Source of the DNA: Curvibacter sp. CHRR-16
GTDB lineage: Bacteria > Pseudomonadota > Gammaproteobacteria > Burkholderiales > Burkholderiaceae_C
NCBI RefSeq assembly: GCF_018474005.1
Contig: NZ_JAHCSH010000005.1
Span: 248,001 to 312,000 of the forward strand
Direction: 5' to 3'
DNA: 64,000 nucleotides
Part shown: piece after piece, positions 6,119 through 64,000 of the stretch
Layout of the letters: the number at the start of each line of letters is the position of its first letter
How positions within the stretch are numbered: the first letter of the stretch is position 1
Position numbers and translations under genes: made by a program
The notes under the pieces: model-generated
What the model was told of the DNA's origin: nothing
Database searches by the model: none
Seen by the model: only the letters and a program-made list of their open reading frames with translations

Positions 6119-7228
6119 ATGTTATTCCATTCATCCGTACGCAAAGAGCTAGCACGCAGTTTTGGAGGCACCTTGGTGGTGTTGTCCACTGTGGTGATGA
6201 CCATGACGCTTTTGCGTACGGTGGGGGATGCATCACGTGGCACATTCAACCCGGCCGATGTGTTGCTGATCATGGGCTATACCGTGTTATCGGACATGCC
6301 CACCATACTGACCTTGAGTCTATTCATTGGCATTTTGTCCATGCTCACCCGCATGTACCGCGACAGCGAAATGGTGATTTGGTTTGGCAGCGGTGCTGGT
6401 CTTGCGCGTGTACTGCCCGCTTTGTTGCGTTTCGCTTGGCCGGTGATCTTGATGGTGGCCGGTTTGGCCATCGTGATCTTGCCGTGGGCATTTTCGCGCA
6501 TCGAAGATTTGCGCTTTGACTATGAAAAGCGTGGTGATATTGCCCGTATCGAACCTGGGCAATTTCAAGAGTCAACCGACGGGTCCCGAGTGTTTTTCAT
6601 AGAAAAAAACAGCAAAAATCAGCAAGTAGGACACAACGTATTCATATCCACCACCGAAGCGGGCAAAGAAACGGTCACAACAGGACAAAAAGGCAGCATT
6701 GAAGTGCGTGGCACGGACAAGTTTTTGCTGCTCGATAACGGCCAGCGGCTAGAACGGTCACCCGGACAGGCCGATGTCACACTCACACAATTTACCCAAT
6801 ACGGTGCCCGCGTAGGACGCAGCGAGCACGCCAGCCGGGATTACGCCCCAACCCAATCGATTTCGACATTGCAAATGCTCGGCTCCTCAGATAAGAGCTA
6901 TCAGGCTGAATTGAGCTGGCGTTTTGGCTTACCACTGGCAGCATTCAATTTGGTAATCATTGCCCTTTCCTTGGCATCGGCCAACCCCAGAGCAGGAAAA
7001 GCCAGTAATTTGGGGATGGCATTTCTTGCTTTCGTGGTCTATTTCAACCTCTTGGTATTGGGCAAAAGCTGGATTGCGTCTGCTCATATCAGCTTGTTGT
7101 CCTACCTGTTACTGGTGCATGGCGGTATAGCCTGTATTGCTGGCATTTGGCTGTTTTTGCGCCATCACAACGTTAGCTGGAGCGATTGGATTGCGCGCAG
7201 TACGCATCGCCGAGGAGGCAAAAGATGA
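6119..7228 (+). CDS. lptF: LPS export ABC transporter permease LptF
   Basis: A 369-aa LptF/LptG-family permease. It has two N-terminal transmembrane segments (about 15-35 and 55-75), a third near 95-120, a large periplasmic beta-jellyroll region (about 130-265) and three C-terminal membrane helices, one containing ASANPRAGKASNLGMAFLAF. With LptG and the ATPase LptB it extracts lipopolysaccharide from the inner membrane. ATG at 6119 (MLFHSSVRKELARSFGGTLV) is the conserved start; the upstream extension overlaps pepA. It overlaps lptG by four bases (ATGA). Confidence 0.93.
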   Translation: MLFHSSVRKELARSFGGTLVVLSTVVMTMTLLRTVGDASRGTFNPADVLLIMGYTVLSDMPTILTLSLFIGILSMLTRMYRDSEMVIWFGSGAGLARVLPALLRFAWPVILMVAGLAIVILPWAFSRIEDLRFDYEKRGDIARIEPGQFQESTDGSRVFFIEKNSKNQQVGHNVFISTTEAGKETVTTGQKGSIEVRGTDKFLLLDNGQRLERSPGQADVTLTQFTQYGARVGRSEHASRDYAPTQSISTLQMLGSSDKSYQAELSWRFGLPLAAFNLVIIALSLASANPRAGKASNLGMAFLAFVVYFNLLVLGKSWIASAHISLLSYLLLVHGGIACIAGIWLFLRHHNVSWSDWIARSTHRRGGKR

Positions 7229-8328
7229 AAACGCTGCGCAAATTGCTGTACCTAGAGGTCATTCAAGCGGTTGCTTTGGTCACAGCTGGCTTCATGGCCT
7301 TGTTTTTCTTTTTTGATGCCGTGGATGAGTTGCAAACAGTCAATCGTTTGCAAGCCCCCGGCTACCAAGCCACCCAAGCCTTGCTCTACGTGGTCATGAT
7401 GATTCCTAGCCATATCTACGAACTATTTCCTATCACGGTGCTCATTGGAACCATTTTCGTGATGGCCCGTTTGGCCCGCAGTTCTGAGTTCACGATTTTG
7501 CGTACCAGTGGATTAGGGCCCGGCCGTGCTTTGCGTTCGCTCACCCTGCTGGGTTTGAGTTTTGTGCTGTTCACTTTCGTCATTGGCGACTACGTGGCCC
7601 CACTGGCTGACAAAACAGCGCAGATGCTCAAATCCCAAGCACAAGGACGTATCAGCATCGGTAAAACAGGTGCATGGCTTAAAGAGCGCCAAGCATTCAA
7701 CCAATTTGCGGTCAATGTGGGGGCCTTGACCCCCGATTCGACCATGCAAGACATCCGCATTTTTGAGTTTGACCGCCGCGGTTTTATCGTCTCACTCACC
7801 CAAGCGGCATCTGCCAGCGTGCAAGGCGAAGCTTGGTTGCTCAATGATGTGGAACGCACCGAATTTTTGTCCCCCGATACCGATGCATCGCAGGTCAGTA
7901 TCAACCGGGTGGATAGCTTGCGCTGGCCAAGCCAGATCAGTGCGGAAATGGTGGCTGCAGCCGTGCTCAAGCCAGAACGCATGGGCACATGGGATTTGTT
8001 TCAGTACATCCGCCACCTGACAGCCAATGGACAAACTGCGCAAAAGTATGAAATTCAGTTTTGGAAAAAGCTGTTTTACCCCATGAGTTGTTTGGTGATG
8101 GTGGTACTGGCCTTGCCTTTTGCATACCTGCATTTCCGCTCAGGCAGTATTTCTGGCTACACCTTTGTAGGCGTGATGGCGGGCATTAGCTTTGTTTTGC
8201 TCAACAACGTCATGAACGACATGGGCAACTTGCGAGGGTGGGATCCCCTGCTCTCTGCCGCCTTACCCAGTCTGCTGTACGGTGGTTTGTCCTTATCGGT
8301 TTTCACTTGGTTGGTTTTAAGACGGTAG
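7225..8328 (+). CDS. lptG: LPS export ABC transporter permease LptG
   Basis: A 367-aa partner permease of LptF with the same layout: N-terminal helices (VALVTAGFMALFFFF), the coupling region around RLARSSEFTILRTSGLGP, a periplasmic domain and three C-terminal helices starting near FYPMSCLVMVVLALPFAYL. ATG at 7225 overlaps the lptF stop (ATGA), so the pair is translationally coupled. Length and motifs are normal for beta-proteobacterial LptG. Confidence 0.93.
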   Translation: MKTLRKLLYLEVIQAVALVTAGFMALFFFFDAVDELQTVNRLQAPGYQATQALLYVVMMIPSHIYELFPITVLIGTIFVMARLARSSEFTILRTSGLGPGRALRSLTLLGLSFVLFTFVIGDYVAPLADKTAQMLKSQAQGRISIGKTGAWLKERQAFNQFAVNVGALTPDSTMQDIRIFEFDRRGFIVSLTQAASASVQGEAWLLNDVERTEFLSPDTDASQVSINRVDSLRWPSQISAEMVAAAVLKPERMGTWDLFQYIRHLTANGQTAQKYEIQFWKKLFYPMSCLVMVVLALPFAYLHFRSGSISGYTFVGVMAGISFVLLNNVMNDMGNLRGWDPLLSAALPSLLYGGLSLSVFTWLVLRR

Positions 8329-20341: not shown

Positions 20342-20839
20342 TCAGGCATTGCGGTCCACCCGCAGGGCCAGCACCACCGAGGTAGTGGTCTTGATCACAC
20401 CGTCGATTTCGCCGATCTCGTCCAGCAGCGCGTCCAGGCGCATCGTGGTGTCAGCCCGCAGCAGAGCCATGTAGTCGAACTCGCCGCTCACAGAAGCGAG
20501 GCGCCGCAACTCGGGCAGACGGGTGAGGCGGGCGATCACCTCGCGCTGGGCCTTGGGGCTGATGGAGATGCCCACGTAGGCCTGCACGCCGCGGTCCAGC
20601 GCCTCGCTGCCCAGACGCGCGGTGTAGCCCACGATCACTGAATCGGCCTCCAGTCGCGCTAGGCGCGCCACCACAGTGGTGCGTGCCACACCCAGTTTGC
20701 GTGCGAGGTTGGCCGTGCTCTCGCGGGCGTTGGCTTGCAGCAGTGCTATCAGGTCGCGGTCGATCTGATCTTTGGGAGCGGCTGGCATGGGGGCTGCCCC
20801 CAGGGCCGGTGTGTCGGGGTAATCTAGGTTTGCGTGCAT
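20342..20839 (-). CDS. Lrp/AsnC family transcriptional regulator
   Basis: A 165-aa regulator. The HTH (DQIDRDLIALLQANARESTA, then ARTTVVARLARLEAD) is followed by an RAM/AsnC effector domain (about 75-160). The first 17-25 residues are not part of the conserved domain; an internal ATG at 20788 (MPAAPKDQIDRD) gives a standard Lrp length. The upstream ATG lies within a sequence related to the direct repeats of the neighbouring transposon, so the annotated N-terminus may have been changed by an insertion. It converges on the ABC transporter operon (56-base gap), which it may regulate. Confidence 0.85.
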   Translation of the reverse strand: MHANLDYPDTPALGAAPMPAAPKDQIDRDLIALLQANARESTANLARKLGVARTTVVARLARLEADSVIVGYTARLGSEALDRGVQAYVGISISPKAQREVIARLTRLPELRRLASVSGEFDYMALLRADTTMRLDALLDEIGEIDGVIKTTTSVVLALRVDRNA

Positions 20840-20852
20840 TTTGTAGCGCTTT
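20829..20852 (+). repeat. left-hand copy of the TTTGCGTGCA...TTGTAGCG repeat
   Basis: This stretch matches 21 of 24 positions of the core of the two 33-base repeats at 23906 and 23991 and lies in the same orientation. It overlaps the start codon of the Lrp gene. About 84 bases further on (around 20911-20933) a weaker match (TTCGG.CAATTG.A.C) keeps the same spacing as the right-hand pair. It probably marks the left side of the transposon or of the accessory region. Confidence 0.5.
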
Positions 20853-20946
20853 CAACCAAGGGTAAACCCTTGGTTTTTAAGCCCTCGATTCAGTCTCTGC
20901 TCGCCAGTTATAGTGTTCGGCAATTGCAACCCCACAGGGAGATGCT

Positions 20947-54180: not shown

Positions 54181-55673
54181 GCTTCACACCCATGCAAAAG
54201 AATCTGTCCCTCACTGCAATTGGCTTGGTGATCTTGGCCCTGGGCGTTGCGGGAGGTGCTTGGTGGACCAAGCGCAGCTCCAACATGGCACCGGCCACTG
54301 CCGAATCTGCCAAGTCTGAACGCAAAGTGCTTTACTGGTACGACCCCATGAAGCCGGATGCCAAGTTCGACAAAGCGGGGCCATCCCCGTTCATGGACAT
54401 GCAACTGGTGCCGCGCTATGCCGACGAAGGTGGCGCGGACACGGCCGCACTGACCATCTCCACACGTGCCAGCCAAAGTTTGGGAATGCGGGTTGCCACA
54501 GTCGTGCAACGGGACCTCTCCGGCACGGTGGAGGTCGCTGGAACCCTGCAACTCAGCGAGCGGGATGTCAGCATCGTCCAGGCCCGCACCGGTGGCTTTG
54601 TCGAGCGCGTTTACGCCCGTGCGCCTGGGGATGTCATCAGCGCAGGCAGCCCTCTGGCCGACGTCACCAATCCGGAATGGGTGGGTGCACAGCAAGAGTT
54701 CCTGGCCGTCAAAGCCATGGGAGACGCCACACTGACCCAAGCCGCACGCCGGCGCATGGCGCTGCTAGGCATGTCCTCCAGTTTGATCCAGCGCGTGGAC
54801 AGCAGCAATCGCACCATGGCGTTGACCACCATCACGGCGCCTGGTTCGGGCGTGATCTCGGAGTTGATGGTGCGCCAGGGCATGAGCCTGAGCCCCGGTA
54901 TGACACTGGCCCGGATTACCGGGTTGGGCACGGTCTGGCTGGAACTGGCCGTGCCGCAGGCCCAGGCATCTACCCTCGACATCGGGCAAGCGGTGGAGGC
55001 CCGTCTTTCTGCCGCACCTGAAACCCTCCTCAAGGGCAAAGTGACATCGGTGCTCGCAGAAACCAACCCGGACACGCGAACCTTGCGCGTCAGGGTCGAA
55101 CTTCCCAATCCGGGCCAGAGGCTGCGTGCCGGCATGTTGGCCACAGCGACCTTGCACGGCCCCACAGAGTCGGTCCTGCTGGTGCCCTCCGACGCCGTGA
55201 TCCGCACCGGCAAGCGCGCATTGGTCTATCTGGCCGAGGACGGAGGCCAATACAGACCGGTTGACGTACAGCTCGGTGCGGAACGTGATGGCCAGTTGGT
55301 CATACGCCAAGGCCTCAGTGCGGGCCAAAAAGTGGTGGCATCGGGGCAGTTCCTGCTGGACTCGGAAGCCAGCATGCGAGGGATCGTCCCTCCATCGAGC
55401 CTGTCATCCACCCCGATGAATACTGCTGCCCCCAGGCTGGAGAAGGTTGCGGCCTTTGAAACACAGGGGGTGATCGAGGAACTGGATGCCTCCAACATCA
55501 AGCTACGCCACGAACCCGTGCCAGCGCTCAAATGGCCGGCCATGACCATGGGCTTCAAGCGCGCCAAGGAGTTGCAGTCGTCTGGCTTCAAAGTTGGGGA
55601 CACCGTGCAGTTCCAGTTCAGGGCTGTCGGTGACGAATACGAGGTGGTGGCGCTCAAGGGGGTGAAGCCATGA
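54177..55673 (+). CDS. cusB: CusB-like membrane fusion protein with C-terminal CusF domain
   Basis: A 498-aa adaptor. It has an N-terminal anchor ([20 protein letters not shown]), a CusB heavy-metal-binding segment ([20 protein letters not shown] then FMDMQLVP), the barrel-sandwich/helical core ([20 protein letters not shown]), and, after a linker near 425, a CusF-like domain ([17 protein letters not shown], with Trp and MTM ligands). Fusion of CusB to CusF is known in several beta-proteobacteria. It is translationally coupled to cusC and cusA. Confidence 0.9.
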
Positions 55674-58600
55674 TTGCGGCCATCATCCGCGGGTCGGTCT
55701 CAAACCGCTTTCTGGTGCTGCTGGCCACGGTGTTTTTGGCGGGTGCGGGCCTCTGGGCCGTGCGTTCCACCCCCATCGACGCCTTGCCGGACCTATCTGA
55801 TGTGCAGGTCATCATCCGCACCAGCTACCCCGGCCAGGCGCCTCAGATTGTGGAAAACCAGGTCACCTACCCGTTGGCCACCACCATGCTGTCCGTGCCG
55901 GGAGCCAAGACGGTACGGGGCTTCTCGTTCTTTGGGGACTCCTTCGTCTACATCCTGTTCGATGACGCCACCGATCTGTACTGGGCGCGCTCTCGCGTCC
56001 TGGAATACCTCAACCAGGTACAGGGACGACTGCCTGCAGGTGCCAAGTCGGCCCTGGGGCCCGATGCCACCGGTGTCGGCTGGATCTACCAGTACGCCTT
56101 GGTGGACCGTACAGGTGGACATGATCTGTCCCAACTGCGGGCATTGCAGGACTGGTTTCTGAAGTTCGAACTCAAGACCCTGCCCAACGTCGCTGAAGTG
56201 GCCAGTGTGGGCGGCATGGTCAAGCAGTACCAGGTCGTGCTGGCCCCCCTCAAGCTCAATGGCTACGGCATCACCTACGAGCAGGTGCGCCAGGCACTGA
56301 TGAACGGGAATCAGGAAACGGGCGGTTCGGTGCTGGAACTGGCCGAAGCCGAGTACATGGTGCGGGTCAATGGCTACCTGCGGACCCTTGACGATTTCCG
56401 GGCCATCCCACTTTCCAGCCGCGGCGGCATTGCAGTTCGGCTTGGGGACGTGGCGACGGTGCAAGTCGGACCCGAGATGCGCCGCGGCGTGGCCGAACTC
56501 GACGGCCAGGGAGAGGTCGCGGGAGGTGTGGTGCTACTGCGCTCCGGCAAGAATGCCCAAGAAACCATCCGTGCTGTCAAAGCCAAGCTGGCCGAACTGC
56601 AAAAAAGCCTGCCACCCGGAGTGGAGGTCGTCACCACCTACGACCGCAGCGCCCTGATTGAGCGGGCCATCGACAACCTGTCTGCCAAGCTCGTGGAGGA
56701 GTTCGTCGTGGTGGCGCTGGTATGTGTACTTTTTCTGGGCCATCTGCGATCTGCGTTGGTTGCCATCATCTCGTTGCCACTGGGCATCGTGGCGGCCTTT
56801 GTGGTGATGCACATCCAAGGCATCAACGCCAACATCATGTCCTTGGGCGGCATTGCCATTGCCATCGGAGCCATGGTGGACGCGGCCGTGGTCATGATCG
56901 AGAACGCCCACAAGAAGCTGGAGGCCTGGCAGCATGCCCACCCCGATCAGGTCTTGCAAGGACAAGAACGGTGGAACGTCATCACCGAAGCGGCCGTTGA
57001 GGTCGGGCCGGCTTTGTTTTTCTCATTGATGATCATCACCTTGTCGTTCATTCCGGTGTTCACACTGGAGGCCCAAGAGGGTCGCTTATTTGGCCCCTTG
57101 GCATTCACCAAGACCTATGCGATGGCAGCGGCGGCCGGACTCTCTGTGACTTTGATCCCCATCCTGATGGGGTACTGGATCCGGGGGCGCATCCCGGATG
57201 AGCAGCGCAACCCCATCACCCGGGCCCTGATCGCGGTGTACCGCCCCGCACTGGAGTGGGTGCTGCAGTGGCCCAAAGTCACTTTAGCTATTGCCGTTCT
57301 GGTCTTTGCCACCACGCTGTGGCCGGTGAGCCAGTTGGGCGGGGAATTCCTGCCTCCCTTGGACGAAGGGGATTTGCTCTACATGCCTTCAGCCTTGCCG
57401 GGGCTGTCGGCGCAGAAAGCGTCGGAGCTGCTGCAAATCACCAACCGCATGATCAAGACCGTGCCCGAGGTGGAACGCGTGTTTGGCAAAGCGGGTCGGG
57501 CGGAGACGGCCACCGACCCTGCGCCCATGGAGATGTTCGAGACCACCGTGCAGCTCAAACCCCGGGACCAGTGGCGCGCCGGTATGACGCAGGAGAAACT
57601 GATCGAAGCGCTGGACCTGGCTGTCAAGGTGCCCGGCCTGTCCAACATCTGGATTCCGCCGATCCGCAATCGCATCGACATGCTCGCCACCGGGGTCAAA
57701 AGCCCCATTGGCGTCAAAGTCAACGGGACTGACCTGGCCACTATCGACCGCATGGCTAGCCAGATCGAGCAGGTAGCCAAAGGCGTGCCCGGGGTGTCCA
57801 GTGCTTTGGCTGAGCGGTTAACTGGAGGCCGCTATGTCGATGTTCAGATCGACCGGGTGGCCGCCGGGCGCTATGGACTGAACATCAATGACGTGCAGGC
57901 TTTGGTGTCGGGCGCGATTGGTGGCGAGAACGTGGCAGAGACCATTGAAGGATTGGCGCGCTTTCCCATCAATTTGCGCTACCCGAGGGAATGGCGAGAT
58001 ACCCCCGAGAAGTTGGCCCAGCTTCCCATCCTGACACCCATGGGGCAACAGATCACCCTTGGTACGGTGGCCAAAGTCAGGATCACCGATGGCCCGCCCA
58101 TGCTCAAAACTGAAAACGCGCGCCCCTCCAACTGGGTCTATGTGGACGTGCGTGGGCGAGATCTGGCTTCCGTCGCCAACGATCTCCGTCAGGCGGTGAG
58201 CCAGCAGGTCAAGCTCGAACCAGGGGTCAGCATTACCTATTCGGGCCAGTTTGAGTTCCTGGAGCGCGCCAATGCCCGGCTCAAGGTCGTGGTACCGGCC
58301 ACCTTGCTGATCATCTTCGTACTGCTGTACCTGACCTTCAACCGACTGGATGAGGCTGCGCTGATCATGGCCACGCTGCCATTTGCGCTGGCGGGTGGGG
58401 TCTGGTTTCTGTACCTGATGGGCTACCACCTGTCAGTGGCCACCGGCGTGGGGTTCATCGCGCTGGCGGGGGTAGCGGCAGAGTTTGGCGTGGTGATGCT
58501 GCTCTATCTCAAGCAAGCCTTGGCCGAGCGAACTATCCTAGATGAAGCCCCCGGAGTTGTCATGGTTCTGGATGCCATTCGCGAAGGTGCAGTGCTTCGA

Positions 58601-58804
58601 GTGCGCCCCAAGGCCATGACGGTAGCGGTGATCCTGGCGGGCCTGATTCCCATTGTCTGGGGAAGTGGTACTGGCTCGGAGGTGATGAGCCGGATTGCGG
58701 CGCCCATGCTGGGAGGAATGATCACGGCGCCACTGCTGTCACTCTTCATCATCCCAGCCGCCTACCGGATGATGCGTGTGCGCGCGGCACGCAGACGCGA
58801 TTAG
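55670..58804 (+). CDS. cusA: heavy-metal RND efflux transporter CusA
   Basis: A 1044-aa HME-RND proton antiporter with 12 helices. Signature parts: [40 protein letters not shown] (proton-relay Asp), [40 protein letters not shown] (Met of the copper path) and [20 protein letters not shown]. These place it in the Cu(I)/Ag(I) exporting CusA/SilA group. It starts within the cusB stop (ATGA) and ends within the stop codon of the convergent metallophosphoesterase. Confidence 0.94.
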
Positions 58805-60130: not shown

Positions 60131-60195
60131 AGAGACTCAAAATGAACACTATAGATTGTAGCCCTATAGAGGTCATTGCTAATTAATCGGTGAGC
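60131..60195. promoter_or_regulatory. divergent control region between the 151-aa gene and the HTH gene
   Basis: Contains two CTATAG palindromes (in ACTATAGATTGTAGCCCTAT and TAGAGG, about 15 bases apart), a plausible operator for the Xre-type regulator encoded beside it. Confidence 0.35.
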
Positions 60196-60489
60196 ATGTC
60201 AAATGCCACCAAACCACGAAACAACTTCGCCACCGCGCTACGATCCGTCCGTCGCTCCAAGGGGTTGAGCCAGGAGGCTTTTGGCCTGGTTTCAAGCCGA
60301 ACTTATGTCAGTACCCTGGAGAGAAAGATCCAATCTCCAACGCTGAATAAGGTGGATGTCTTGGCGGAAGTCTTGGGCGTTCATCCTTTGACCCTGCTCG
60401 CCAGGTCCTACCTCCGTAAGACGGACGCAACCTCGGTGGACAAGGTGTTGGCCCTCGTCGCCACCCAGATTTCGGAGCTCGACAAGTAG
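60196..60489 (+). CDS. Xre-type helix-turn-helix regulator
   Basis: A 97-aa DNA-binding protein with a lambda-repressor-type HTH covering about residues 10-65 (LRSVRRSKGLSQEAFGLVSS then TYVSTLERKIQSPTLNKVDV). The C-terminal 30 residues are helical, perhaps for dimerisation. ATG at 60196 is chosen over GTG at 60190 because of the CGGTGAG ribosome site. It lies 90 bases before the HAD gene. Confidence 0.82.
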   Translation: MSNATKPRNNFATALRSVRRSKGLSQEAFGLVSSRTYVSTLERKIQSPTLNKVDVLAEVLGVHPLTLLARSYLRKTDATSVDKVLALVATQISELDK

Positions 60490-60579: not shown

Positions 60580-61074
60580 ATGCTCTATTCAAGCCCAAGC
60601 CACAGGGCAACTGCAGCCGTACAAGTTATTTTTCTGGATTTTGATGGGGTGATGCACCCTGAGTTTTGCCATGAATCCAAGCACTTTGTGCACCTGGATA
60701 TCTTTGAGGCGGTGATGCGTACAGCCCCCCACGTTGAGCTGGTGATTTCCAGCACATGGCGCTACAAACGATCCTTGGAAGAACTCAAAGCCTTGTTTTC
60801 GGACGATGTGGCGGCGCGGATAGTTGGCGCTACGCCGCCATACGCACAGCTGGAGGATGTTCCCGATGTGCTGGTTGGCTATGAGCGCGAGGCCGAATGC
60901 AGGAATTGGTTGGAGCAACATGGACGCACAACACGAGAGTGGCTGGCCGTGGATGACCGGTCCTGGAATTTCCGCCCCTTCAATCCCCATGTTTTCCTTG
61001 TGGACGGAGATGTGGGACTGGATGTGAGCGCTGCAGCGAAACTTGCGGCCCGCATCCATGGTGCATTGGCCTGA
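60580..61074 (+). CDS. HAD-domain protein (RNA-repair-type HAD family)
   Basis: A 164-aa protein with the HAD nucleophile motif VIFLDFDGVMHPEFCHES, motif II VELVISSTWRYKRSLEELKA and the distal acidic site WLAVDDRSWNFRPF. It resembles the small HAD domain described in bacterial RNA-repair proteins, which are phosphatases acting on nucleic-acid ends. No ligase or kinase domain is fused to it. It may form a small module with the Xre regulator upstream. The substrate is inferred. Confidence 0.75.
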   Translation: MLYSSPSHRATAAVQVIFLDFDGVMHPEFCHESKHFVHLDIFEAVMRTAPHVELVISSTWRYKRSLEELKALFSDDVAARIVGATPPYAQLEDVPDVLVGYEREAECRNWLEQHGRTTREWLAVDDRSWNFRPFNPHVFLVDGDVGLDVSAAAKLAARIHGALA

Positions 61075-61128: not shown

Positions 61129-62085
61129 ATGAGCAACGTTGACGACTATCTCAAAGCCGCGGAACGCCAGAACACGCTGTTGAGCTACGCCTCAGCGATC
61201 CGGCATTTTGAGGAGGAATGGAAAGGCCTGTTGCCGGCCAGCAGCGATGCCATTGCCCGATACCTGGCGGACTATGCGGCCACGCTATCAGGAAACACGC
61301 TGCGCCACAGGCTGGCAGCGCTGTCACGGTGGCACCTGGACCAAGGCTTTGCCGATCCGACCAAGACCACCACCATCCGGCAACTTCTCAAGGGCATCCG
61401 CACCGTGCACAACACCCCGGAAAACCGGGCGCGGCCACTGGATCTGGAGGTCTTGGAGCGGGTGGACGGTTGGCTGGTGGAAAGCATTGAACGGTCCCAG
61501 CGTCAAGGTGACAACGCTTCGACGCTGAGATTCACCCGTGACCGCAGTCTGATTCTGTTGGGGTTCTGGCGCGGATTCCGGTCTGATGAGTTGGTCCGCC
61601 TCACTGTTGAAAACGTCCAAATCGTGTCTACCGAGGGGATGACCTGCTACCTCGAGCGCAGCAAAGGTGACCGTCAGACCTTGGGCAAGACCTACAAATG
61701 CCCATCCTTGTCCAGACTGTGCCCGGTAACGGCATTTGCCCAGTGGGTCGCACTGGCCAAGCTTGAGCATGGACCGGTGTACAGGGGTGTTGATCGGTGG
61801 GGCCACCTGTCGAGTAAAGCCATGCATCCCAACAGCCTGATTCCGCTGCTGCGCACCATGTTGTCCCTAGCGGGTGTACCGGAAGTGAAGGAGTACAGCA
61901 GTCACTCTTTGCGGCGCGGCTTTGCCGGCTGGGCCCGCGCCAGTGGGTGGGATATCAAGGACCTGATGGAATACGTGGGGTGGCAGGACATCAAGTCGGC
62001 CATGCGCTATCTGGATACACCAGACGCTGAATTGCAGAACAGGTTTGAGCAAGGTCTACAGAAGGGCAACCCCAAGAATGAGTAG
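61129..62085 (+). CDS. tyrosine recombinase/integrase
   Basis: A 318-aa site-specific recombinase. The core-binding N-terminal domain (residues 1-100) has QNTLLSYASAIRHFEEEW and GNTLRHRLAALSRWHLDQGF. Catalytic residues are visible: Arg151 in FWRGFRSDELVRL, Lys179 (ERSKGDRQTLGK), His259 and Arg262 in SSHSLRRGFAGWA, Trp285 in the HxxW position, and nucleophile Tyr294 in KSAMRYLD. It overlaps the next gene by eight bases. It is a candidate integrase for this region, although no att sites were recognised. Confidence 0.93.
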   Translation: MSNVDDYLKAAERQNTLLSYASAIRHFEEEWKGLLPASSDAIARYLADYAATLSGNTLRHRLAALSRWHLDQGFADPTKTTTIRQLLKGIRTVHNTPENRARPLDLEVLERVDGWLVESIERSQRQGDNASTLRFTRDRSLILLGFWRGFRSDELVRLTVENVQIVSTEGMTCYLERSKGDRQTLGKTYKCPSLSRLCPVTAFAQWVALAKLEHGPVYRGVDRWGHLSSKAMHPNSLIPLLRTMLSLAGVPEVKEYSSHSLRRGFAGWARASGWDIKDLMEYVGWQDIKSAMRYLDTPDAELQNRFEQGLQKGNPKNE

Positions 62086-63277
62086 AAAAATACCTGCAAA
62101 GTTGCTTCAGCAGATCTATCACGCTCTTTCTGAAAAGAATCGCCGCTTCGGTGACTTTGCCCAATACGCGCCTCTCGATGACATCATCGTTGCGCGCGGG
62201 TGGGTCTACAACATTGAGTTGGAGGAATTGCTTCTTGCAACAGATTCGCGGGTTGCGCATCTGGACCTGAATCGGTTGACGGAATACCTTGAGATCCCAT
62301 GGCGCACGGTTTACAAACGTCCACGGTACCTGTCCGCCGGTGCTGTGGCCATCAATGCGCTCACTCTGGCCGACGCAGCATGCCTGTTTGTTCGGATGGA
62401 GGAAATGGGGTTTGACAGTCATCCCGAGCGCTTGGTCGAGCATGGGCTCCGTGCCCAAAGGGACCTGACGCATATCACGGATAGCGAATGGACTTTGCTG
62501 TCTTACCCGAAGCGGCGCCTGAAAGAAGAGTTTTTTGCCCAATCGGATGGGCAGAACGATGATGGGGAGTGGGTGCCACACAACTGGAAAGACGCGCAGG
62601 GACGCCACATCGAATTCACCTTGGTAGGGAAACTGCCCCACCTATTGACGGTTAGAGGGCCCAAGTACAGAAGGCCTGCGCCCCAGGTAAGCACCACCTG
62701 TCCAACCTGTGGATGCCGCTATACCAAGGGCGACCCGGAAGGCGCGCTGTTTCACCGGTCAGAACATGCCCGGGTAATGCGGTTCATGAATCCGCGGCCA
62801 CTCGCAGCGTTTCAGACCAGACTGGAAAAGCATGCCGATCCAGAGTTGGTGATCGGTGATTCACCCATATGGATGCACCGAGAGGTCCATCAACGCGCGC
62901 TCCAGTTCAAACGCGAATTTCAGTACGACTTCCTTCAATGGGAAGGGTCCCTAAGGAAAAAGAACCTTCGCCCGGAAAGTCACGGCTATCTGTTCGCGGA
63001 TCACACTGACACATATGGGCCAGGCACGGCAATAGGTGCCTGCGCCTTCTGGCATGAAGGTGAGAAATGGCGGATGCGTTGGATCTGGGTGTGTCCATCC
63101 ATGCGTCGCACTGGAGTCTTGGCCAAGCGTTGGGCAGAGTTTCTGCAACGGTACGGTGATTTTGAAATCGACACACCGCTGTCAGAAGCCATGGCGGTGT
63201 TTGTGAAAAAGCATGGTACTGCGAAGCAAAAACAGTATTTGCAGGCCCAGCCACCGACCGACTCCTCTGACCTGTAG
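62078..63277 (+). CDS. Eco1/ESCO-like acetyltransferase with C2H2 zinc finger
   Basis: A 399-aa protein. Residues 208-230 form a C2H2 finger, CPTCGCRYTKGDPEG then LFHRSEH (C-x2-C-x14-H-x3-H), followed after 100 residues by WRMRWIWVCPSMRRTGVLAK and a C-terminal GDFEIDTPLSEAMAVFVKKH. This order and the RIWV-RRxGIA-AFSxP-like pattern resemble eukaryotic cohesin acetyltransferases (Eco1/ESCO); RRTG would be the acetyl-CoA loop. The N-terminal 200 residues are unassigned. It overlaps the recombinase by eight bases, so the two are coupled. The ATG at 62078 (MSRKIPAKLL) avoids the longer frame. The family call is tentative. Confidence 0.52.
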   Translation: MSRKIPAKLLQQIYHALSEKNRRFGDFAQYAPLDDIIVARGWVYNIELEELLLATDSRVAHLDLNRLTEYLEIPWRTVYKRPRYLSAGAVAINALTLADAACLFVRMEEMGFDSHPERLVEHGLRAQRDLTHITDSEWTLLSYPKRRLKEEFFAQSDGQNDDGEWVPHNWKDAQGRHIEFTLVGKLPHLLTVRGPKYRRPAPQVSTTCPTCGCRYTKGDPEGALFHRSEHARVMRFMNPRPLAAFQTRLEKHADPELVIGDSPIWMHREVHQRALQFKREFQYDFLQWEGSLRKKNLRPESHGYLFADHTDTYGPGTAIGACAFWHEGEKWRMRWIWVCPSMRRTGVLAKRWAEFLQRYGDFEIDTPLSEAMAVFVKKHGTAKQKQYLQAQPPTDSSDL

Positions 63278-63287
63278 CCATACCAAT

Positions 63288-64000
63288 ATGCAGTTGCCAC
63301 TCGCACCGAGCCACGAAGAAATCGTCACCAAGTTCAATGTGGAGATTCTGAAGTCTCCAGGTGATCTAGTTCTGAGAAACGGCGATATCGCGGTGACCAA
63401 AAGCGGCGATCTGATGCTGAACAACGAGCACTACAGCGCGATGCGTCGGTTTGTCAGTGCATGGCGATTCAACGCGCCCATGCTCAAGTCACTTTTTGAC
63501 CTGACCATGGTCGTCAGTTCGCGGTCCCAGGACTTGAAAAGAAGCCTGGACCAGGGTGTCGACTACCGACGTGATCCGAGTCAAAAACCATTTCCGCCCG
63601 GCTCGACATCTTTCAAACGTAGGTTCGCGTTGACCGAGGAAATCGCCGCCAATATGTTGGGTTCTGAGTCCTGCGCCGGCGCAATACTGCTGAACTTGAC
63701 GGGTTTCCTCCAAGCTCTGAAAGATGACATCAATGCAGGTCGCCTCGACTGGGAGGGCACTGCGCCATTGATCCATGGGCATTCAGTGGGGGTTATTTTG
63801 GTTGCGACCTCAAATTACTTTCGGCATTGGGACGAGTGGAGAAAAACCTCGCCGCCGACAACCAGACAGGCAACGTCGATGGATGTTCTGAACGCCGTTT
63901 TACACAGTGCCGGGTTGAAGCAGCGCAACCATCGACTCATGGGGGTCGAGGGGATATGCACAAAGATCTTGGATGTTCTGAGCGATGGTGATTTCGAAAT
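63288..64000 (+). CDS. hypothetical protein, cut by the right edge
   Basis: An open frame begins ten bases after the Eco1-like gene (MQLPLAPSHEEIVTKFNVEI) and is still open at the window end after 237 codons. Segments such as LRNGDIAVTKSGDLMLNNEH, ILLNLTGFLQALKDDINAGR and HSVGVILVATSNYFRHWDEW are well ordered, with no membrane helix, signal or recognised domain. Placement suggests a third gene of the recombinase operon. Confidence 0.6.
   Translation, partial: MQLPLAPSHEEIVTKFNVEILKSPGDLVLRNGDIAVTKSGDLMLNNEHYSAMRRFVSAWRFNAPMLKSLFDLTMVVSSRSQDLKRSLDQGVDYRRDPSQKPFPPGSTSFKRRFALTEEIAANMLGSESCAGAILLNLTGFLQALKDDINAGRLDWEGTAPLIHGHSVGVILVATSNYFRHWDEWRKTSPPTTRQATSMDVLNAVLHSAGLKQRNHRLMGVEGICTKILDVLSDGDFE

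Follow-up and report, generated by a model that had tools for sequence, protein, structure and literature searches.

At the end of a transposon in Curvibacter sp. CHRR-16 lies a gene for a protein in which a C2H2 zinc finger, by its sequence profile of the kind found in the cohesin acetyltransferases ESCO1 and ESCO2, precedes a predicted acetyltransferase domain of the GNAT superfamily. The gene was studied within a window, the 64,000-nucleotide stretch of DNA that was analysed, and we read its product, with a probability of roughly 0.55, as a protein acetyltransferase of mobile elements that acts on a DNA-associated protein. We commit to a protein acetyltransferase because of the predicted GNAT fold, the conserved acetyl-CoA loop, the protein acetyltransferases among its structural neighbours and its mobile distribution. 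Acetyl-CoA would be bound through a conserved R-x-x-G loop and a lysine of the DNA-associated protein would be acetylated, while the finger may either brace the GNAT domain or help to locate the substrate on DNA, and the N-terminal 200 residues of the full-length forms may add targeting. The benefit would probably go to the element itself, in its maintenance or in conflict with phage or host defence. What deserves attention is that plasmids, a transposon and phages encode a close copy of the ESCO finger followed by a GNAT domain. Should the protein act on a target bound to DNA, mobile elements would steer the DNA machines of hosts or rivals by protein acetylation, and it would become testable where the Eco1 architecture came from. 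A literature search of titles and the starts of abstracts found no description of a bacterial ESCO-like family, and it is no proof of absence given that most subscription journals and all preprints lay outside its scope.

The finger-GNAT gene is real. Copies at two Rhodoferax loci are 91% and 83% identical to that of the window, and the three pairs formed by these copies give dN/dS values of 0.079, 0.148 and 0.132, therefore the protein is under purifying selection. Its features and those of the surrounding element are collected in Table 1. The finger is formed by C208, C211, H226 and H230, within CPTCGCRYTKGDPEGALFHRSEH, exactly as given in a preliminary description of this DNA, which was also right about the eight-base overlap with the recombinase reading frame (start at 62078, end of the recombinase at 62085). 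The same description had recognised the order IWV...RRTG...AMAVF of eukaryotic cohesin acetyltransferases. The three strings are indeed present in this order (at residues 336, 343 and 371), but the order IWV...RRTG is common to GNATs generally, and AMAVF is probably no counterpart of the ESCO stretch IAFSDPT, for which FEIDTPLS is the likelier match in an alignment by eye. The N-terminal region of about 200 residues is found in most full-length relatives and is missing in some phage forms.

Table 1. Features of the window and of the plasmid loci discussed in the text (positions in the window unless a locus is named).
Feature	Position	Strand	Evidence
Left inverted repeat, GTGTC before it	20816..20875	+	48/60 positions match right repeat
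Tn3-family transposase, 983 aa	20947..23898	+	DDE_Tnp_Tn3 E 3.7e-106
Helix-turn-helix protein	60190..60489	+	HTH_3 E 5.2e-8
HAD_SAK_2 protein, conserved upstream of recombinase	60580..61074	+	E 1.5e-28
Tyrosine recombinase, 318 aa, 8-base overlap with finger-GNAT gene	61129..62085	+	Phage_integrase E 3.1e-11
Finger-GNAT gene, 399 aa	62078..63277	+	ORF and translation, Pfam, dN/dS
N-terminal region, ~200 residues, no known domain	62078..62674	+	Pfam search, alignment; AlphaFold2
ESCO-type C2H2 zinc finger, residues 208-230	62699..62767	+	profile searches
GNAT domain, about residues 255-390	62840..63247	+	weak Acetyltransf_1 (E 0.084); predicted fold
Downstream gene, 254 aa, no assigned function	63288..64000, stop at 64052 beyond window	+	
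Gabija/Mza neighbour genes	L025 5709-8476; L024 6619-10180; L026 5685-10120		

Profile comparisons assign the finger to the ESCO type. The zf-C2H2_3 family is the best Pfam match of the window protein (E 3.3e-4; 20.8 bits, under the curated cut-off of 27), it is matched by 14 of the 17 members of the family alignment A1 (best E 9.8e-9), and a phage member (L039) lies over the same cut-off with 31.3 bits. Partial rows of A1 are P0005, L025, L005, L006 and L017, and three rows hold no finger: L005 and L006 are relatives that lack one, and L025 was taken from its annotated start, below its finger. An in-frame finger at L025 5046-5138 lies just upstream of the start assigned to the GNAT gene and was left out by the annotation. 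Both cysteines and both histidines are kept in all 18 sequences of alignment A6, a set chosen for having the finger. The finger did not score as a generic C2H2 only, as ESCO2 (2.5e-4) and ESCO1 (2.8e-3) were the top two matches when the family profile was searched against 177,635 distinct PDB sequences. A profile of finger and GNAT domain together gave ESCO1 at 2.4e-5 and ESCO2 at 2.1e-4, with the next match at 0.17, a single phage member gave 7.5e-6 and 0.0042 for the same two proteins, and the window protein alone had no PDB match by sequence search. In profile-profile comparison the finger matches the ESCO finger with E 7.8e-12 and 46% identity over 35 columns. It stands directly before the GNAT domain both in the alignment and in the predicted models, a layout described for eukaryotic cohesin acetyltransferases (PMC7300003, PMC5349539).

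The C-terminal part is predicted to adopt a GNAT fold, and the modelled structure does not single out one subfamily. Acetyltransf_1 (PF00583) reaches 13.6 bits on the window protein against a cut-off of 20.7, and is matched weakly in 14 of the 17 members of A1. In the AlphaFold2 model of the window protein the N-terminal region is mostly under pLDDT 50 and residues 201-390 have means of 54-91 in blocks of 10 residues; the model of a phage core has a mean pLDDT of 76.9 and a pTM of 0.69. Both models bear out the GNAT-like C-terminus proposed in the preliminary description: in a Foldseek search against 350,542 PDB chains ESCO1 (5t53) takes rank 1 for the window model (4.6e-5) as well as for the phage core (4.8e-7), and the top rows are all GNAT-type acetyltransferases. 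TM-scores to ESCO1 are low, 0.23/0.45 for the window model and 0.45/0.48 for the phage core by query/target length, and alpha-tubulin acetyltransferase, GCN5/PCAF and aminoglycoside acetyltransferases follow close behind. The first 15 rows of the phage core are mostly protein acetyltransferases (ESCO/Eco2, alpha-tubulin acetyltransferase, GCN5/PCAF); they include nine Eco1/ESCO chains, eight of which are xEco2 in a construct that starts after the finger, and with the window model the next Eco1-type chain after ESCO1 comes only at rank 15. The canonical acetyl-CoA loop of GNATs reads R/Q-x-x-G-x-G/A. R343 and G346 of this loop, the two residues by which alone the acetyl-CoA site was judged, are present in 27 of 27 rows (all 17 of A1, and the 10 that remain in alignment A5 once its Rhodoferax rows are set aside), and the loop ends in L, V, M or F. 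The family shares with the GNAT superfamily (PF00583) the predicted fold, a weak profile match and the conserved R-x-x-G, whereas this third loop position, an invariant P-x-S following the final core strand, the finger and the N-terminal extension set it apart.

The finger-GNAT gene is spread over plasmids, other elements and phages. Relatives (E ≤ 1e-5) were found in 135 of 72,556 plasmid records, of which 126 are Pseudomonas, with Stutzerimonas, Piscinibacter and Cupriavidus among the other carriers, and 131 of the 135 cover at least 80% of the window protein; a nucleotide search gave no match in plasmids. One of the Pseudomonas homologues lies on the megaplasmid of P. fluorescens SBW25 (NC_009444). 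Neighbouring genes were read in 6 of the 126 Pseudomonas records (L002, L003, L014, L015, L016 and L027), and the Shinella record is unannotated. Whole genomes rarely hold a relative: 1 of 200 in the family of the host, which is the host itself, and 4 of 398 in the phylum (5 by profile search), again with the host included. Not every relative has the finger: L005 and L006 are without it, and the one at L006 637-1653 is a 338-aa protein that joins the GNAT part of the family to a different N-terminal region. A Methylobacterium plasmid protein (L018 6001-6294) resembles the N-terminal region only (residues 37-131, E 4e-3), hinting that this region also exists on its own. Among 50,697 phage records a single one (MT835634, L017) has a relative; it is labelled Bacteriophage sp., and its neighbouring genes look like those of an integrative conjugative element. 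IMG/VR contigs yielded 5 loci with profile A1 and 10 loci with profile A2, and no relatives with the window protein alone or with alignment A3; the viral loci read were those other than L035-L037, L040 and L041. A Mu-like phage (L034; Mu transposase, AAA ATPase, Mor, tape measure) has a full-length copy, L039 has a finger-GNAT protein lacking the N-terminal region beside major head and minor tail genes, and L032 encodes a finger-GNAT protein of 187 aa near a primase gene. Finger-less GNAT proteins of 160-200 aa occur in the viral contigs L029, L030, L031, L042 and L043, and the fragment in L033 is also finger-less. For the phage profile phrog_36762 (165 positions, no known function) the E-value is 1.7e-11 with the window protein, in its GNAT part, and 7.2e-20 and 1.3e-19 with the finger-less forms of L030 and L031; the matches span the GNAT part, and the finger and N-terminal region lie outside.

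This distribution gives some room to a role in anti-phage defence or counter-defence, in which the protein would modify a phage protein or the ATPase of a defence system, a tentative proposal that is compatible with our preferred reading. Copies occur in phages, and three plasmid copies have Gabija or Mza genes beside or close to them: on a plasmid of Agrobacterium Q15/94 the family gene is directly followed by GajA and GajB, on the plasmid of Agrobacterium CFBP6623 GajB and GajA are one gene away and on the opposite strand, and on a Rhodovastum plasmid MzaB and MzaC come directly after it. However, the neighbours scanned were 10 proteins that either looked defence-related or stood immediately downstream, 4 of which were unmatched, with no background rate; since they were pre-selected, the association with defence is a lead and not a statistic. 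Nor do the annotated gene names suggest defence around the six Pseudomonas loci, the Neorhizobium locus and the Rhodoferax loci, and no PADLOC model matched the window protein at E ≤ 0.1.

The preliminary description had named the protein an Eco1/ESCO-like acetyltransferase that might modify an SMC-like protein. This name fits the finger type, the order of the domains and the first structural match, but not the GNAT part, whose specific ESCO identity found no support in its sequence. The expected ESCO acetyltransferase family Acetyltransf_13 (PF13880) was matched neither by the window protein (E ≤ 10) nor by the 17 members of A1 (E ≤ 1) or 9 viral members, and the phage GNAT part alone found no ESCO among PDB sequences at E ≤ 10. 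Profile-profile comparison of the GNAT domain with that of ESCO gave a probability of 1.9%, against 0.13% for reversed ESCO and 24.8% for one unrelated GNAT of the Rhodovastum plasmid. When the profile alignment with ESCO1 and ESCO2 was run past the finger, it scored 51.4 (51.43) over 159 columns, compared with 49.9 for the finger alone, 51.2 for the finger with a reversed GNAT, 51.6 ± 0.95 (maximum 55.9) for 100 column shuffles and 56.1 for the ESCO finger joined to that unrelated GNAT. A score of 60.45 over 160 columns with three ESCO sequences had looked convincing for Eco1 orthology, and was undone by the column shuffles with two ESCO sequences. The catalytic residues of ESCO are S809 and D810 of the human protein (PMC7300003); the corresponding S-D-P is present in 0 of the 27 rows, which read [DEQGS]-x-P at what we infer to be the same position, and by eye no C-terminal FLVYNF stretch of ESCO was seen in the family alignment. 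In sequence the GNAT part resembles ESCO no more than it resembles one unrelated bacterial GNAT, matches no Acetyltransf_13 and has no S-D-P, therefore the likeness of this bacterial family, set on mobile elements, to Eco1, ESCO1 and ESCO2 is one of architecture, and orthology to Eco1 is not established by the sequences compared.

It is thus unlikely that the protein is a true relative of Eco1/ESCO and works in the same way, with the ATPase head of a bacterial or phage SMC-type protein as its substrate. Such kinship keeps a small share of the probability, since the finger matches strongly and GNATs change fast in sequence; the identical domain order, the first rank of ESCO1 and the Eco1/ESCO chains of the phage-core search, nearly all finger-less, would agree with it, as would the match of the neighbouring GajA of L025 to SMC_N (5.2e-14). 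A bolder version, which we consider a long shot, is a bacterial, phage-spread counterpart of the cohesin acetyltransferases that would acetylate and thereby switch the ATPase head of an SMC/RecN/OLD-type DNA machine such as GajA of Gabija; control in the manner of Eco1 would then extend beyond eukaryotes, and the finger-GNAT architecture of Eco1 might have come from this family.

Three observations count against our reading as a protein acetyltransferase: the L, V, M or F at a loop position where G or A is usual, the Acetyltransf_1 score below cut-off in the window protein, and the closeness in fold of AAC(3)-type small-molecule enzymes. It is nevertheless improbable that the protein acetylates a small molecule, e.g., an aminoglycoside or a polyamine. 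AAC-type structures are among the first Foldseek rows of the window model and AAC(3)-Ib stands at ranks 5 and 7 for the phage core, but small-molecule acetyltransferases do not usually carry a zinc finger and a long N-terminal region, and the occurrence of copies in phages also speaks against such a substrate. Mom of phage Mu is a GNAT-related protein that modifies DNA bases, and the full-length copy of the Mu-like phage, placed between the transposition genes and Mor, could suggest that the protein modifies the bases of its element in the same manner; this is very improbable, as PHROGs matches were only to families of unknown function or named 'acetyltransferase', and none was named Mom.

The preliminary description had also coupled the gene to its overlapping recombinase. 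Positions 20816-64135 are a Tn3-family transposon of 43,320 bp, by its transposase, inverted repeats and 5-bp duplication (GTGTC at both ends), with the last 135 bases outside the window. It resembles Tn3-family elements with tyrosine-type resolvases (TnpI; TnpS and TnpT; PMC7157771) in transposase, repeats, 5-bp duplication and internal tyrosine recombinase, and differs in that some 37 kb separate the transposase from the recombinase, which is placed at the other end. The right repeat is also present in Rhodoferax sp. TH121 (L011), R. bucti (L012) and plasmid pOS401; the left ends of these three were not found within the stretches examined. A megaplasmid location of the window was considered and rejected, the right flank having Tex-, katG- and purL-like genes (named from translations).

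The recombinase and the finger-GNAT gene are coupled because both sit at the right end of one Tn3-family transposon. In pOS401 (L028) the gene that comes after a 93%-identical recombinase is an unrelated one of 285 aa (6985-7842) with no Pfam match, and homology to the window ends at 62057 and resumes at 64080-64135; therefore the recombinase is part of the transposon itself, and the finger-GNAT gene has the look of an interchangeable passenger at the end of this element. The eight-base overlap is confined to this transposon (3 of 3 Rhodoferax-type loci, i.e., the window and the two Rhodoferax copies) and occurs in none of the 12 other annotated plasmid loci (L002, L003, L013-L016, L018, L024-L027 and L052; L018 matches the N-terminal region only, and L024 and L052 carry an identical gene set). 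At L014 an integrase gene lies 375 bases upstream on the opposite strand. In view of the transposon borders and the pOS401 allele we reject the recombinase as a conserved partner; in the mechanism that we prefer it would be the transposon's own and not required. That the recombinase is the substrate, an earlier suggestion which the overlap in all three loci favours, is hardly credible given the different gene of pOS401 and the 12 loci without it. Equally far-fetched is a toxin-antitoxin pair in which the finger-GNAT protein would be the toxin and the 254-aa gene downstream its partner. The two genes adjoin in the three Rhodoferax-type loci, and such pairs are often carried by Tn3-family elements (PMC7157771); against this, relatives of the downstream gene are found in 2 of 72,556 plasmid records with no finger-GNAT gene beside them, and finger-GNAT relatives elsewhere have different neighbours, so that a constant partnership was not borne out in the plasmid records and annotated plasmid loci. 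The transposon also holds metal-efflux-like genes, e.g., a CusA-like gene at 55670-58804 (name from the pOS401 annotation).
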